Below, in pieces: positions 13,296 through 18,569 of a DNA stretch of 45,617 bases. A program made the position numbers and the translations under genes. Origin of the DNA: Polyangiaceae bacterium. Lineage in GTDB: Bacteria; Myxococcota_A; Polyangia; Polyangiales; Polyangiaceae. The stretch's first letter is position 1; each line of letters opens with the position of its first letter. Location of the stretch: positions 1 through 45,617 of the forward strand of contig JAPYTK010000017.1 of NCBI GenBank assembly GCA_029941785.1, given 5' to 3'. A model generated the notes under the pieces. The model was not told where the DNA came from, searched no databases, and worked only from the letters and a program-made list of their open reading frames with translations.

Positions 13296-14291
13296 GTGTT
13301 ACAAGAATGCGTGGCGCAACGCAAAGTCCTCGTCGCTGCCCATGGCTATTGCTTCGATGGGATGACAAGCGCAGCTTTGTTTACGAAGTTGAGGCAATCG
13401 CTCAGCGACGACCAGCTCAGCTTTGCTTACCGATCTTGCGGCTACAGTCCCAAGCTGAAGACGGTTCCCGATCGTTGGCTCAAAGGCGATGAAAATGCCA
13501 TCGTCGACTTCAAGTACGCCCCCACGAAGCGTCTGCATTGGTACTTCGATCACCACGTAACGGCCTTCGACAGCGATCGGCAGCGAAAGAAAACGCACCT
13601 CGACGACGGGCACCTCTTCTACGACCCGCACTACACGTCATGCGCAAAGCTGATCGCCGATCGTGCGCTCGATCACTTTGGCGTCGATCTGTCTGGCCAT
13701 GCAGAGCTCATCGAATGGGCCGATCGCATCGACTCTGCGAACTTCGATTCACCGGATGAAGCCATTGCCCGAAACCATCCGGTCATGCAGTTTGCCAGCG
13801 TCGTAGAAAGTCACGGCAACACCGAGTTTTACCAGAAGATGGTCCCACGGCTCATCCGCGAGCCGCTGTCCGCCATCGTGCGATCCGACGAAATTCAAGA
13901 CCGCTGGGCCCCCATTGCGGTCGATCACCAGGGTGTCCTTCGTCGCATTCGTGAAGCCTGTGAATTGCGTGGAGAAGTCGTGTTCGCCGATTTGCACGAA
14001 CATGAACTTCCCGGCAGTGGAAAATTCGTCTCCTACGCTGCCTTTCCCCACGCGCGATATTCGGTGACCGTCTTGCGCACGCCCAAGCACTTCAAGCTGT
14101 CCGTCGGCTACAACCCCTGGTCGCAGAAAGCACGAAAGCACGACATCGCTTCGATCTGTGCCCGCTACGGCGGGGGAGGCCATCCGGTCGTTGGTGCAGT
14201 CTCCGTCGGCCTCGATCGAGTGGACCGCGTACTGGAACTGGCCACCAAGATCACCGAAGAGCTCAACGGCGCTGAGCCAACCGAAAGCTGA
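13296..14291 (+). CDS. DHH/DHHA1 family phosphoesterase
   Basis: 331 residues from a GTG at 13296 (a GTG at 13311 is the alternative; no ATG is suitable). Motif I is AHGYCFDGMTSAAL, in which the first Asp of the usual motif is replaced by Cys, as in some DHH subfamilies of the H-x-x-C-x-DG type. The name-giving motif is FDHH (D85-H86-H87). A C-terminal YGGGGHPVVGAV is the substrate-binding GGGH of DHHA1. Likely activities are hydrolysis of small nucleotides (nanoRNA, pAp, cyclic dinucleotide products) with Mn. It is cytoplasmic, and its transcript ends at a strong hairpin directly after the stop. Confidence 0.85.
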   Translation: MLQECVAQRKVLVAAHGYCFDGMTSAALFTKLRQSLSDDQLSFAYRSCGYSPKLKTVPDRWLKGDENAIVDFKYAPTKRLHWYFDHHVTAFDSDRQRKKTHLDDGHLFYDPHYTSCAKLIADRALDHFGVDLSGHAELIEWADRIDSANFDSPDEAIARNHPVMQFASVVESHGNTEFYQKMVPRLIREPLSAIVRSDEIQDRWAPIAVDHQGVLRRIREACELRGEVVFADLHEHELPGSGKFVSYAAFPHARYSVTVLRTPKHFKLSVGYNPWSQKARKHDIASICARYGGGGHPVVGAVSVGLDRVDRVLELATKITEELNGAEPTES

Positions 14292-14371: not shown

Positions 14372-15205
14372 ATGAGGTCATGGCTGCTTGCGGCAAGTAC
14401 CCTGTCTGTCTGGGCGGCCGTGGTCGTGGGCTGTTCCGACCGCTCACGGAGCAACCACTTCACGCCGCTCAGCTCCGGCATCGTGACCAGTGCGGCGGTA
14501 GGCCCGTCGAGTAGCTCCGGCGCGGGCGCGCATGGAGGAAACGCTCCAGCGCAGACTGGCGTAGGCGGGGCGAGTAGCAGCGCGATCGGCGGGATGGGAG
14601 GCCTGGCCGCGAGCGGAAACGGGGGCATGGCCCCGACCTGCATCGGCCCGACACCCCCTCAAGACGCATGGATGGCCATGCCCGGTCCGGTGTACGGCGG
14701 GGGAGGCGCAGGCGGGGGGATCGAAGTCGGCACACCAACCATCGGTGCATTACCGCCTCCATGGCTTCTCCCAGACGTAGAGCCGACAAGCTGTGGATTC
14801 GGCGCGACCTACGGGATGGATGTTTTCACGAGCACGGTGACGGTCGCCGTCCTGCTCGCCGGATGGTGAGACTTCTGCATTGCCCAGGCTGGGCAACTCG
14901 AAAAAATGCGCCTGGAGCTCGCTGGCGAAGGGCACCTGGTTCACTTCTTGACGATCAACGCCACGAGCGCGCTGAGCTACCAGGCGGATTTGCTCAAGCA
15001 GCAGGCCTTCGCCCTCATGCAAGATCAAACGAACGTCAACGTTTGGACCCTGCTCGGCGGCAACAAAGACGACTTTTTCATCTACGACAAGACGGGCAAA
15101 CTCAAGGTGTACCTCTCGGCCTCTGGCTCCGTAGATACCAACCTGAGCAGCGCCACGGGATACAACAATCTCAAGACCTACATCCTCAATGTCTTGGGCC
15201 CTTAG
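14372..15205 (+). CDS. selenoprotein P-like thioredoxin-fold lipoprotein with in-frame UGA (selenocysteine)
   Basis: 277 residues if the TGA at 14867-14869 is read as selenocysteine (U166). Seen: the ATG at 14372 begins a signal peptide with lipobox VVVGC (Cys21); residues 30-125 are a Gly/Ser/Ala linker; residues 128-277 form a thioredoxin-like domain. The frame before and after the TGA is the same, and the TAG at 15203-15205 ends it. The motif is VTVAVLLAGW-U-DFC, a UxxC redox pair (U166, C169). From memory of human selenoprotein P, VTVVALLQAS-U-YLC-ILQASKLE aligns with it, and VWTLLxGxKDDFxIYDxxGxL (224-244 here) is shared. Inferred: an outer-membrane-anchored selenium-dependent thiol oxidoreductase. 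A hairpin fitting a bacterial SECIS follows the UGA. Alternatives are a broken gene or a true stop, but conservation continues past the UGA. No Shine-Dalgarno sequence is seen. Confidence 0.85.
14867..14896 (+). promoter_or_regulatory. candidate bacterial SECIS element (UGA plus hairpin)
   Basis: UGA at 14867-14869, then 10 unpaired bases, then TTGCCCA (14880-14886), loop GGC (14887-14889) and TGGGCAA (14890-14896): a perfect 7-bp stem. Seventeen bases separate the UGA from the loop, and the loop begins with G. Both fit the bacterial SECIS consensus as I recall it (loop about 16-37 nt from the UGA, with a G among its first two bases). Weaker pairs (TG/CG, TT/AA) extend the stem below a small internal loop. 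SelB would bind here. Confidence 0.75.
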
Positions 15206-15255: not shown

Positions 15256-16278
15256 ATGCGAATCACCCATTCTCTCTCGATCTTGCTGATGGTTGTCTGC
15301 TTGGGGTGTGGGCAAAACGCCGATAATTCGACCGACGCCGCGAGCGCCGCGAGCGGAGGAAACAACTGCACGGGCGTGGACTGCGACCCGGGACCCACCT
15401 GTGACGATCCGGCGGAGCTATGCCTTCCCGAACCGGACGCGGGGATCCAGATCCGGACCGAGGGCGAGATCATCGAGCCCGGCGAAGACGTCGAGTACTG
15501 CGAGGTGATCGTGCTGCCGGGAGACGCATCCACGACCTATTACGTGAAGCGGTTCGACGTGCAGATGACCCAGCACAGCCACCACCTCATCGTGTCGGCC
15601 GCCAAAGTCGGAAGCGAAACCGAAGCGAACGCGCAGCCCGGCCTCAAAGAGAAGTGCATTGGCGCGCGTATCTTCGGCGACGAACTCGTCTCCGTCACCG
15701 GCAGTCAGCAAGCCTACAGCACCGAGACCTTTCCCGACGGCGTTGGCCGTCTGTACCATGGCGGGCAACGCCTGATTTTTGACTACCACTACCTGAACAC
15801 GACGAGCGAGCCGGTCCAGGCGAGGGCGGCGGTCAACTTTCATACGGTGCCGGCAGAGGAGATCCAGCGGATCGCACGGAGCTTTGGCTTTTACAATCTG
15901 GGGATCCACATCGAACCCGGGCAAGAGGCAGACTTCACAAAGACCTGTTACTTTAACCACGACGTGATGGTTCACAAGGTGACGCGCCACACCCATCAGT
16001 GGGGTCAGAACTTCGATGTTCGCTATGCTGGTGGCCAAAACGACGGCAAGCTCTTCTTCACCTCCGAGCACTACGAAGACATCGACCACATCTTCGACGA
16101 ACCGATCCTCGTACGTAAAGACGAAGGCTTCACCTTCCGTTGCGCATTCAAGAACACGAACGACTACGCGCTCGAGTTTGGCGTCAAGGCCACCGACGAG
16201 ATGTGCATTTTGTTCGGCACATGGTTCGTGGTGAACGAAGGCGAGCAGGTGCCCAGCCAAGGTTGCTTCGGCACCTGA
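15256..16278 (+). CDS. copper type II ascorbate-dependent monooxygenase-like lipoprotein (PHM/DBH fold)
   Basis: 340 residues with a signal peptide ending VCLGC (Cys18), so probably outer-membrane-anchored. The copper ligands of peptidylglycine alpha-hydroxylating and dopamine beta-monooxygenases are all visible: CuA from HHL (H109, H110) and DYHYL (H178); CuB from HTHQWG (H245, H247) and the late Met in DEMCILF (M316). EYCEVIVLPG at about 80-89 and the paired Cys also fit. Family members hydroxylate a C-H next to N or an aromatic ring using O2 and an electron donor. The substrate here is unknown. An N-terminal region of 60 residues is rich in Cys and acidic residues. It lies 50 bp behind the selenoprotein gene across a hairpin and converges with slyX. 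Confidence 0.85.
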   Translation: MRITHSLSILLMVVCLGCGQNADNSTDAASAASGGNNCTGVDCDPGPTCDDPAELCLPEPDAGIQIRTEGEIIEPGEDVEYCEVIVLPGDASTTYYVKRFDVQMTQHSHHLIVSAAKVGSETEANAQPGLKEKCIGARIFGDELVSVTGSQQAYSTETFPDGVGRLYHGGQRLIFDYHYLNTTSEPVQARAAVNFHTVPAEEIQRIARSFGFYNLGIHIEPGQEADFTKTCYFNHDVMVHKVTRHTHQWGQNFDVRYAGGQNDGKLFFTSEHYEDIDHIFDEPILVRKDEGFTFRCAFKNTNDYALEFGVKATDEMCILFGTWFVVNEGEQVPSQGCFGT

Positions 16279-16470: not shown

Positions 16471-16607
16471 GTATCTCCGTCTCGGTCGTCCGTCACGATC
16501 TCGTATATTTACCGGTGTTTTCGGCACAACATGCCGGGGACCACGCTTGCACATGCCCTTGGCAGCTGATATGTCCGCCATTCGTGTGAATGCGTAAAGG
16601 TAAACGA

Positions 16608-18569
16608 ATGATGCATAATCGATCTTCTCTTTTCAACGCCTTGTCTTGGTCGAGCGTGATCGCCATGGGGGCACTGATCGCCTGCTCGAGTGGCGACAAC
16701 AACGCGGACACCACCTCAGGCAACGGAGGCGGAACGAGCACCATGGTGGGCGGCGCGGGCGGCACCGGAGCCCAAATGCCCAGCAGTGGTCCCGGAGGAG
16801 CAGACGGATCGCAACTCATCATCAACGAGATCATGTACGATCCCAAGGCCGTGTCCGACGAGGCCGGCGAGTGGATCGAGATCTACAACGCGGGCGTCAA
16901 CTCCGTCGACTTGAAGGGCTACCGCATCCACGACCAAGGCTCCAACAGCCACACCATCGCGAGCAGTGTCACGGTCGAAGCAGAGGGCTACGTGGTGCTC
17001 GGCCGACAGGGCAGCAACAACGGCGGCTACGACGCCGACTATGTCTACGGCAACGACTTCTTCCTTGCGAACAGCAAAGACGCCGTCATCCTCCGCGGCC
17101 CGGACGACGCAGAAATCGACAGCGTCATCTATGGCTCGACCGCCCCCTGGCCACTGAAGAACGCCGGCGTGAGCATCGAACTTTCCGCGCCGACCCTGGA
17201 CAATGCCACCCCGACGAGCTGGCAGTTGGCGATCGTCAGCTACGGCGACGGCGATCTCGGCACGCCCGGCGGGCCCAATGGAGGCGCCATACCAGGCGAC
17301 TACACGATCGACGACACCGTCGATGGTTGGCACCAACCCGCGCTCAAGACGTCCTTGTTCTTCGGGCCACTCGATCCGCTCGAGAGCATCGTCCTGGACG
17401 AACTGAAGCTCGCTCAAGACAAGATCCGCCTCGCCTTCTTCAACATCCGACTGTACGACGTGCGTCAGCTGCTCAAGAGCAAAATCGCCATCGGCGTCGA
17501 CGTTCACGTCATCCTCGACAAGAAGCAGCAGGCGCTCTCCTACAACACGATGGGCGAGCAGCTCGTCGCCGATGGCATCACCGTCACGCTCGTCGAACGG
17601 ACCGAGGCGGTCGACGCGACCATGCACGACAAGTTCGCCATCATCGACGACGGCCGCGTGATCACCGGCTCGGCCAATTACTCCCATACGGCGCTCAACA
17701 TCAGCGACGAAGATCTTGTCGTGATGGAGAGCAGCAGCTTGGCCGCTCGATACCAGCTGGAGTTTGACGAGTTGATCGCCGACGGCGACGACAAGAGCGC
17801 GCCCTACGGGGCCAGCGACAAGATCCACGCCTGGATGGGTCCGGAAGACAGCATCTACCAAAAGGTGATCAGTGCGCTGGACGGCGCGCAGAATACGGCC
17901 TTGGTGGCGATGTTCCAATTTAACACCAGCAGCATTCTCGACGCGATCATCGACGCCAAGAACCGCGGGGTCGCGGTGGTGGTGGTGCTCGACAAAGTGC
18001 AGGCTGACGATCCCGAATCCCTCGCAAACGAGACGCTAAGCTCTGCCGGCATCTCGGTCGTCTTGGCCCACAACATGGGGAGCAACTTCGCAGAAATGCA
18101 CTCCAAGTTTGCTGTTATCGACCATCAACTCCTACTCATCGGGTCGTACAACTGGACCAACCTCGGTTCTTTTTTCAACGACGAGAACCTGTTGATCATC
18201 GACGACGGACATCTCGCGGCTCGTGCCGAAGGCAAATACGCCGACATGCTCAACGCCTACGGAGCGCCGTCAGCCAGCTCGCTCGGTCTGACTACCGGCC
18301 CGCAAACGGTCGATTTCGAGGTCAACAATGTCACCCTCGGCGCCCAAGAGAAGCTGATGATCAAGAGCATCGGTGGCGGCCCCTTCGATCCGGCGGTCGA
18401 GATGAGCGGCACCACCCTCGCGGCCAACGTCGAGGCGGGTACCCGCATCGAGTACCGCTACGAGATTCACGATAGCAAGGGACCGCTCGCGCTCGAGGGA
18501 ACCACTCACGCCTTCACGGTCCCCTACGCTCCGGGGCCCTTCAGCGTGGTCGATACCTTCGAGAAGTAA
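16608..18569 (+). CDS. lipoprotein with lamin-tail domain and two phospholipase D (HKD) motifs
   Basis: 653 residues. I choose the ATG at 16608 because AAAGG lies 7 bases before it; ATGs at 16590 and 16611 are alternatives. The signal peptide ends ALIAC (Cys26), followed by a Gly/Ser/Thr linker. Residues about 65-205 form a lamin-tail domain (LIINEIMYDP, EWIEIYN, VDLKGYRI). Two PLD half-sites follow: H340-D-K342 (MHDKFAIID...GSANYS) and H498-S-K500 (MHSKFAVID...GSYNWT), so the active site is complete. Short HKD enzymes of this kind are often nucleases or phosphodiesterases, so a surface nuclease or phospholipase is likely. The last 90 residues look beta-rich. It converges on sohB with a 6-bp gap. 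Confidence 0.88.
   Translation: MMHNRSSLFNALSWSSVIAMGALIACSSGDNNADTTSGNGGGTSTMVGGAGGTGAQMPSSGPGGADGSQLIINEIMYDPKAVSDEAGEWIEIYNAGVNSVDLKGYRIHDQGSNSHTIASSVTVEAEGYVVLGRQGSNNGGYDADYVYGNDFFLANSKDAVILRGPDDAEIDSVIYGSTAPWPLKNAGVSIELSAPTLDNATPTSWQLAIVSYGDGDLGTPGGPNGGAIPGDYTIDDTVDGWHQPALKTSLFFGPLDPLESIVLDELKLAQDKIRLAFFNIRLYDVRQLLKSKIAIGVDVHVILDKKQQALSYNTMGEQLVADGITVTLVERTEAVDATMHDKFAIIDDGRVITGSANYSHTALNISDEDLVVMESSSLAARYQLEFDELIADGDDKSAPYGASDKIHAWMGPEDSIYQKVISALDGAQNTALVAMFQFNTSSILDAIIDAKNRGVAVVVVLDKVQADDPESLANETLSSAGISVVLAHNMGSNFAEMHSKFAVIDHQLLLIGSYNWTNLGSFFNDENLLIIDDGHLAARAEGKYADMLNAYGAPSASSLGLTTGPQTVDFEVNNVTLGAQEKLMIKSIGGGPFDPAVEMSGTTLAANVEAGTRIEYRYEIHDSKGPLALEGTTHAFTVPYAPGPFSVVDTFEK

Follow-up and report, generated by a model that had tools for sequence, protein, structure and literature searches.

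The hairpin at positions 14880–14896 of a 45,617-nucleotide stretch of Polyangiaceae DNA, referred to here as the window (all features lie on the forward strand), is best explained as a bacterial selenocysteine insertion sequence (bSECIS), with the upstream UGA codon at 14867–14869 decoded as selenocysteine (Sec) in a SelP_N-like lipoprotein, a reading to which a probability of about 0.96 is assigned. That the UGA is most likely read as Sec follows, at the level of sequence comparison, from the association of stem and UGA among homologues, the covariation of the stem, the rank of the element in a genome-wide covariance-model search, and the presence of tRNA-Sec, SelA, SelB and SelD in the same genome. 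Bacterial selenoprotein genes are easily truncated at UGA by annotation, and a SECIS-like stem seen in a single sequence carries little weight; the many Sec and Cys relatives available for this gene constitute an unusually clean natural experiment.

The gene (14372–15205) extends over 277 codons from a presumed ATG start at 14372 to a TAG at 15203–15205, with a single in-frame TGA, and the frame is open throughout if this TGA is translated as a residue. The N-terminus of the predicted product resembles a lipoprotein signal (MRSWLLAASTLSVWAAVVVG-C), in which the lipobox VVVG-C21 is apparent from the letters themselves; a Ser/Gly-rich linker comes next, and after it a domain containing the motif ...LLAGW-U-DFC.... 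This domain (14816–15118) is matched by Pfam SelP_N (PF04592) at 60.0 bits (E 2.9e-16), exceeding the gathering cut-off of 23.2 bits, with Redoxin as runner-up at 12.1 bits; a SelP_N match is present in 36/36 aligned relatives. The AlphaFold2 model adopts a thioredoxin fold (mean pLDDT 92, pTM 0.85), its best solved-structure neighbours being CcmG, DsbE, ResA and similar envelope thiol oxidoreductases. Within the U-D-F-C motif, the UGA corresponds to Sec166; the aligned codon is likewise UGA in 72 further homologues and encodes Cys in 22. The putative resolving residue Cys169 (Sec166-x-x-Cys169) is encoded at 14876–14878. The protein is predicted to be an exported lipoprotein of the cell envelope and is probably a thiol-disulfide or thiol-peroxide reductase, in which the Sec166 selenolate would attack the substrate and Cys169 would resolve the resulting selenenylsulfide.

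Downstream of the UGA the sequence reads 5'-GACUUCUGCA-UUGCCCA-GGC-UGGGCAA-3', with ten bases between UGA and stem. The 5' arm UUGCCCA (14880–14886), supported by covariation and by a covariance-model match, forms the last 7 nt of the 17-nt stretch separating the UGA from the apical loop (14870–14886); the A-U-closed triloop GGC occupies 14887–14889, a place held by GGC, GGU or GUU in 70/73 sequences; and the 3' arm UGGGCAA (14890–14896) is likewise supported by covariation. The first-pass annotation had described a perfect 7-bp stem, a loop starting with G and 17 intervening bases, exactly as the bases read, and had placed the hairpin inside coding sequence, which holds if the UGA is read through from ATG to TAG. 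Published bSECIS rules specify a loop of 3–9 nt, a stem of 4–16 bp, a G among the first two loop positions, a UGA-to-loop spacing of 16–37 nt and a minimum free energy (MFE) limit of -7.5 kcal/mol (PMC13188914), together with the loop rule N-G-[G/U]-N-N (PMC13188914). The hairpin agrees with all of the sequence rules (GGC loop, seven Watson-Crick pairs, 17-nt spacing), its A-GGC-U loop fits the loop rule, and MFE values of -9.3 kcal/mol for the hairpin and -9.0 kcal/mol from UGA+1 to the stem end both pass the energy limit; an alternative fold of -14.3 kcal/mol was found in one 50-nt fragment. As in the bSECIS consensus model (type example E. coli fdhF), the element lies directly 3' of the UGA and within coding sequence. 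Compared with the bSECIS model, the window family is unusually uniform, featuring an A-U-closed GGC, GGU or GUU triloop and a fixed 17-nt spacing in most members.

The main competing explanation is that the UGA is a true stop, with the gene either ending at 14869 or being a pseudogene or sequencing error, and that the hairpin is a chance palindrome. TGA is an ordinary stop elsewhere in the window, ending for example the gene at 13296–14291, so the genetic code has not been reassigned; a 99-codon ATG frame (14906–15205) is also available downstream. Watson-Crick stems of at least 7 bp allowed by the bacterial SECIS rules follow 14 of the 1278 other TGAs in the window (1.1%, both strands). When the peptide was recoded synonymously 100,000 times with the window's codons, 1.2% of the sequences contained any allowed 7-bp stem, and 0.05% a triloop stem of 7 bp with a spacing of precisely 17 nt (P ~5e-4). 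Folding energy is unremarkable against dinucleotide shuffles, with z-scores of -2.1 for the bare hairpin and -0.3 for 60 nt. With a chance rate of 0.05 to 1% and an ordinary folding energy, the hairpin on its single sequence is moderately improbable and suggestive, without amounting to proof: the earlier contention that such a palindrome is unlikely by chance is borne out, whereas the independent support for Sec drawn from it proves suggestive only. Decisive proof is supplied by the comparison of homologues.

Searching 387 related genomes with PF04592 yielded 23 genes in which this codon is UGA and 20 in which it encodes Cys. An allowed stem was found in 23/23 of the UGA genes (20 at 17 nt, one at 21 and two at 25), and at the equivalent place in 0/20 of the Cys genes. 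A phylum-wide profile search (Myxococcota), from which 50 more UGA genes were fetched after the stem set had been fixed, recovered a stem in 50/50, none of which had been used in defining it. Across the 73 UGA homologues, 63 feature a triloop stem of 5–8 bp at exactly 17 nt, six combine that stem with an AGUUC loop of 5 nt (spacing 16 nt), and in four an equivalent stem is found at a spacing of 21 or 25 nt; UGA homologues devoid of a stem, which the first-pass annotation had singled out as the observation that would count against a SECIS, are therefore absent from this set. Counted strictly (triloop stem of at least 5 bp at 17 nt), the association is 63/73 Sec vs 0/20 Cys genes (Fisher P 3e-13); counted widely, with alternative forms admitted after seeing the data, it is 73/73 Sec vs 0/22 Cys genes. 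Against a true stop, the UGA is shared by 72 homologues from many genera, is replaced by a Cys codon in others and is flanked by intact coding sequence on both sides, and a covarying stem accompanies it in every Sec gene and is found in no Cys gene; the true-stop explanation is accordingly very unlikely.

Stem and Sec also change together. Within genus g157, three genes (L019, L029, L033) encode Sec and carry the stem, and two (L024, L083) encode Cys and lack it. On a tree of 95 proteins with the Sec/Cys position masked, 10 Sec/Cys changes are needed, three of which are forced by supported branches, and the stem tracks the Sec/Cys state in all independent pairs examined; with three well-supported forced switches only, a sign test corrected for the tree cannot become significant by itself. 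The stem lies 4 or 8 nt further downstream in L017 (21 nt) and in L025, L027 and L087 (25 nt), and the peptide of the latter three reads Q-A-S in place of Q-A-G. From these sequences, the SECIS of L025, L027 and L087 appears to have been relocated as the codons that usually form the stem changed. With a stem that accompanies the UGA exactly and that has moved in some members, the family offers a potential training and test set for SECIS models.

Base pairing is maintained across stems of differing sequence, as in UCGAGCCA/UGGCUCGA, UUUCCA/UGGAAA and GCUCA/UGAGC. In a set of 20 sequences, 93.6% of cells are paired, with changes on both sides in 4/7 pairs; in 69 sequences, 95.2% of cells are paired and double changes affect 5/7 pairs (99 cells). 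The covariation score of the 69 sequences is 0.602 vs 0.124 (SD 0.019) for shuffled sequences, with 0/500 shuffles as high. Compensatory changes in homologous stems, proposed at the outset as a check, are thus found, and the score stands far from the shuffled level that had been named as the adverse outcome. When the register is slid by one to three bases, pairing falls to 25–49%, and no slid register reaches the observed covariation score. Two styles of stem are evident, UCCCA-GGC-UGGGA (the window type) and AGCCA-GUU-UGGCU, the latter characterising the NCBIfam NF053656 group and a third paralogue in this genome (L048).

It could be argued that the conserved stem is a by-product of the Q-A-G peptide and G+C-rich codons, with no RNA structure involved, particularly as protein-level conservation also extends to CAG at +6 and Gly at +8. 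Codon choice at neighbouring positions speaks against this: GCU encodes Ala at +7 in 42/42 Sec genes vs 1/11 Cys genes (P 6e-10), and UCC encodes Ser at +5 in 38/52 Sec genes vs 0/4 Cys genes. Where Cys homologues keep these residues, they spell them with codons incompatible with the stem. Codon usage is tied to the RNA and not to the amino acids, and, with pairing kept between different stem sequences and lost in slid registers, a peptide-driven origin is exceedingly improbable.

A covariance model (R1) built from 19 relatives, excluding this genome, ranked the window element first in the whole 6.03 Mb genome (31.4 bits, E 4.8e-5; match at 14877–14899). The second match, a paralogue on contig C83 of the same genome (G000:C83), scored 19.8 bits (E 0.16), which is not significant alone, and the genome scan detected no UGA in register beyond these two elements. 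R1 thus disclosed no further selenoprotein families in this genome, the matches below the paralogue being without a UGA in register. A DNA pattern combining UGA and stem returned 39 matches over 257 Gb of genomes, 34 of which encode this SelP_N-type family; the records concerned are labelled Myxococcales, Polyangia, Deltaproteobacteria, or unresolved proteobacteria and bacteria. The remaining five (L164, L165, L166, L172, L178) fall outside the family and are regarded as chance matches, against about four unrelated matches expected by a rough estimate assuming equal base frequencies. The same pattern had no match in viral contigs.

The genome, which is 98.8% complete, encodes the Sec-decoding set: a tRNA-Sec with anticodon UCA (74.3 bits), SelA (481 bits), SelD (280 bits, matched at a contig end), and a SelB with SelB-wing_2 and SelB-wing_3 winged helices at its C-terminus. 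The C-terminal winged helices are the SECIS-binding end of known SelBs. By analogy with known bacterial Sec systems, a ribosome reaching the UGA at 14867 would be met by SelB carrying Sec-tRNA-Sec; the winged-helix end of SelB would bind the GGC triloop on its A-U-closed stem, and SelB would deliver selenocysteine, and translation would go on to the TAG at 15203. The genes for tRNA-Sec and SelB lie back to back and divergent, ~50 bases apart (L060:3371-5413, G000:C55). Assigning the stem some other role (terminator, attenuator or protein-binding site), with the UGA read otherwise, for example as Trp, has in its favour that hairpins serve many roles and that Rfam searches at gathering and permissive thresholds gave nothing relevant at the hairpin, but carries next to no weight given that no U-run follows the stem, UGA ends other genes under an unreassigned code, the aligned residue in homologues is Cys and not Trp, the stem is missing exactly where the UGA is missing, and the Sec machinery is complete.

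Sec decoding by the bSECIS is mirrored in the wider distribution of the machinery, tRNA-Sec being detected in 17/18 genomes with a Sec form vs 7/14 with Cys forms only, as classified by the PF04592 search (P 0.01). The lone Sec-form genome in which tRNA-Sec was not detected (G038) is 77% complete, and a Sec homologue of greater divergence (L143) is present in G221, one of the seven tRNA-Sec-positive genomes counted as Cys-only in that search. Four genomes (G008, G238, G256, G358) have Cys forms only by the PF04592 search and retain tRNA-Sec; since tRNA-Sec persists there, Sec may have been lost from the SelP_N-type gene with the machinery kept for other selenoproteins. The window genome itself harbours two more SelP_N-type genes, L047 (G000:C83:2007-2291) and L048 (G000:C303:1988-2323), both of which contain a single in-frame UGA followed by a stem at 17-nt spacing; that of L048, a member of NF053656, is of the other style, UCGAGCCA-GUU-UGGCUCGA.

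Among described families, NF053656 (redoxin_TUGYCR, 'TUGYCR motif thioredoxin fold (seleno)protein') shares the thioredoxin fold and the position of Sec. Members L134, L135, L127 and L048 reach 143–199 bits, and their stems occupy the same position as that of the window gene, whereas the window protein, at 54.6 bits (47.5 when the domain is taken by itself), falls short of the 100-bit cut-off. On sequence grounds it is placed in a sister subfamily, with the motif GWUxxC and stems of the UCCCA-GGC-UGGGA type, as opposed to ATUxYC and the AGCCA-GUU-UGGCU type in NF053656. The 'Prx-like 2' selenoproteins of the Global Ocean Sampling (GOS) metagenome were described in 2008 from 99 marine reads as bacterial UxxC proteins with weak similarity to pfam04592 (PMC2398784), with an E-value >0.001 and no strong homologue in the genomes then available (PMC2398784). 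The window family is likely the same family, to go by this published description; the PF04592 E-value of the window protein is 2.9e-16. Bacterial SelP_N-like selenoproteins have therefore been known since the 2008 metagenomes, and the window element adds an unusually well-supported case. A 2026 inventory, which covers 119 selenoprotein families of prokaryotes, does not list PF04592 by name.

The N-terminal domain of animal SELENOP has been argued to be distantly related to bacterial thiol oxidoreductases (PMC2397514, 2008), and it shares with the window protein the PF04592 match, the UxxC thioredoxin fold and export. Unlike SELENOP, the window protein ends after the thioredoxin domain, without the Sec-rich C-terminal selenium-carrier domain; it has only one Sec, is predicted to be anchored as a lipoprotein, and is encoded with a bacterial-type SECIS inside the reading frame. 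A search of the PDB with the family profile returned no SELENOP among the best 60 matches. Predicted envelope-anchored bacterial relatives of the SELENOP N-terminal domain, with Sec at the same place, bear on the origin of SELENOP. A broader and distinctly tentative proposal, doubtful as a whole, is that the Myxococcota SelP_N lipoprotein selenoproteins form a clade listed as its own family in no published inventory; that its rigid, minimal triloop SECIS (A-GG/GU-N-U, 17 nt) is lost or moved whenever Sec changes to Cys or the Q-A-G codons change; and that this clade may be near the bacterial source of the SELENOP N-terminal domain.

Two further predicted lipoproteins are encoded downstream in the window, one directly adjacent (15256–16278) with a copper type II monooxygenase C-terminal domain (E 1.5e-7), and another (16590–18569) featuring a lamin-tail domain and two phospholipase D-like domains.
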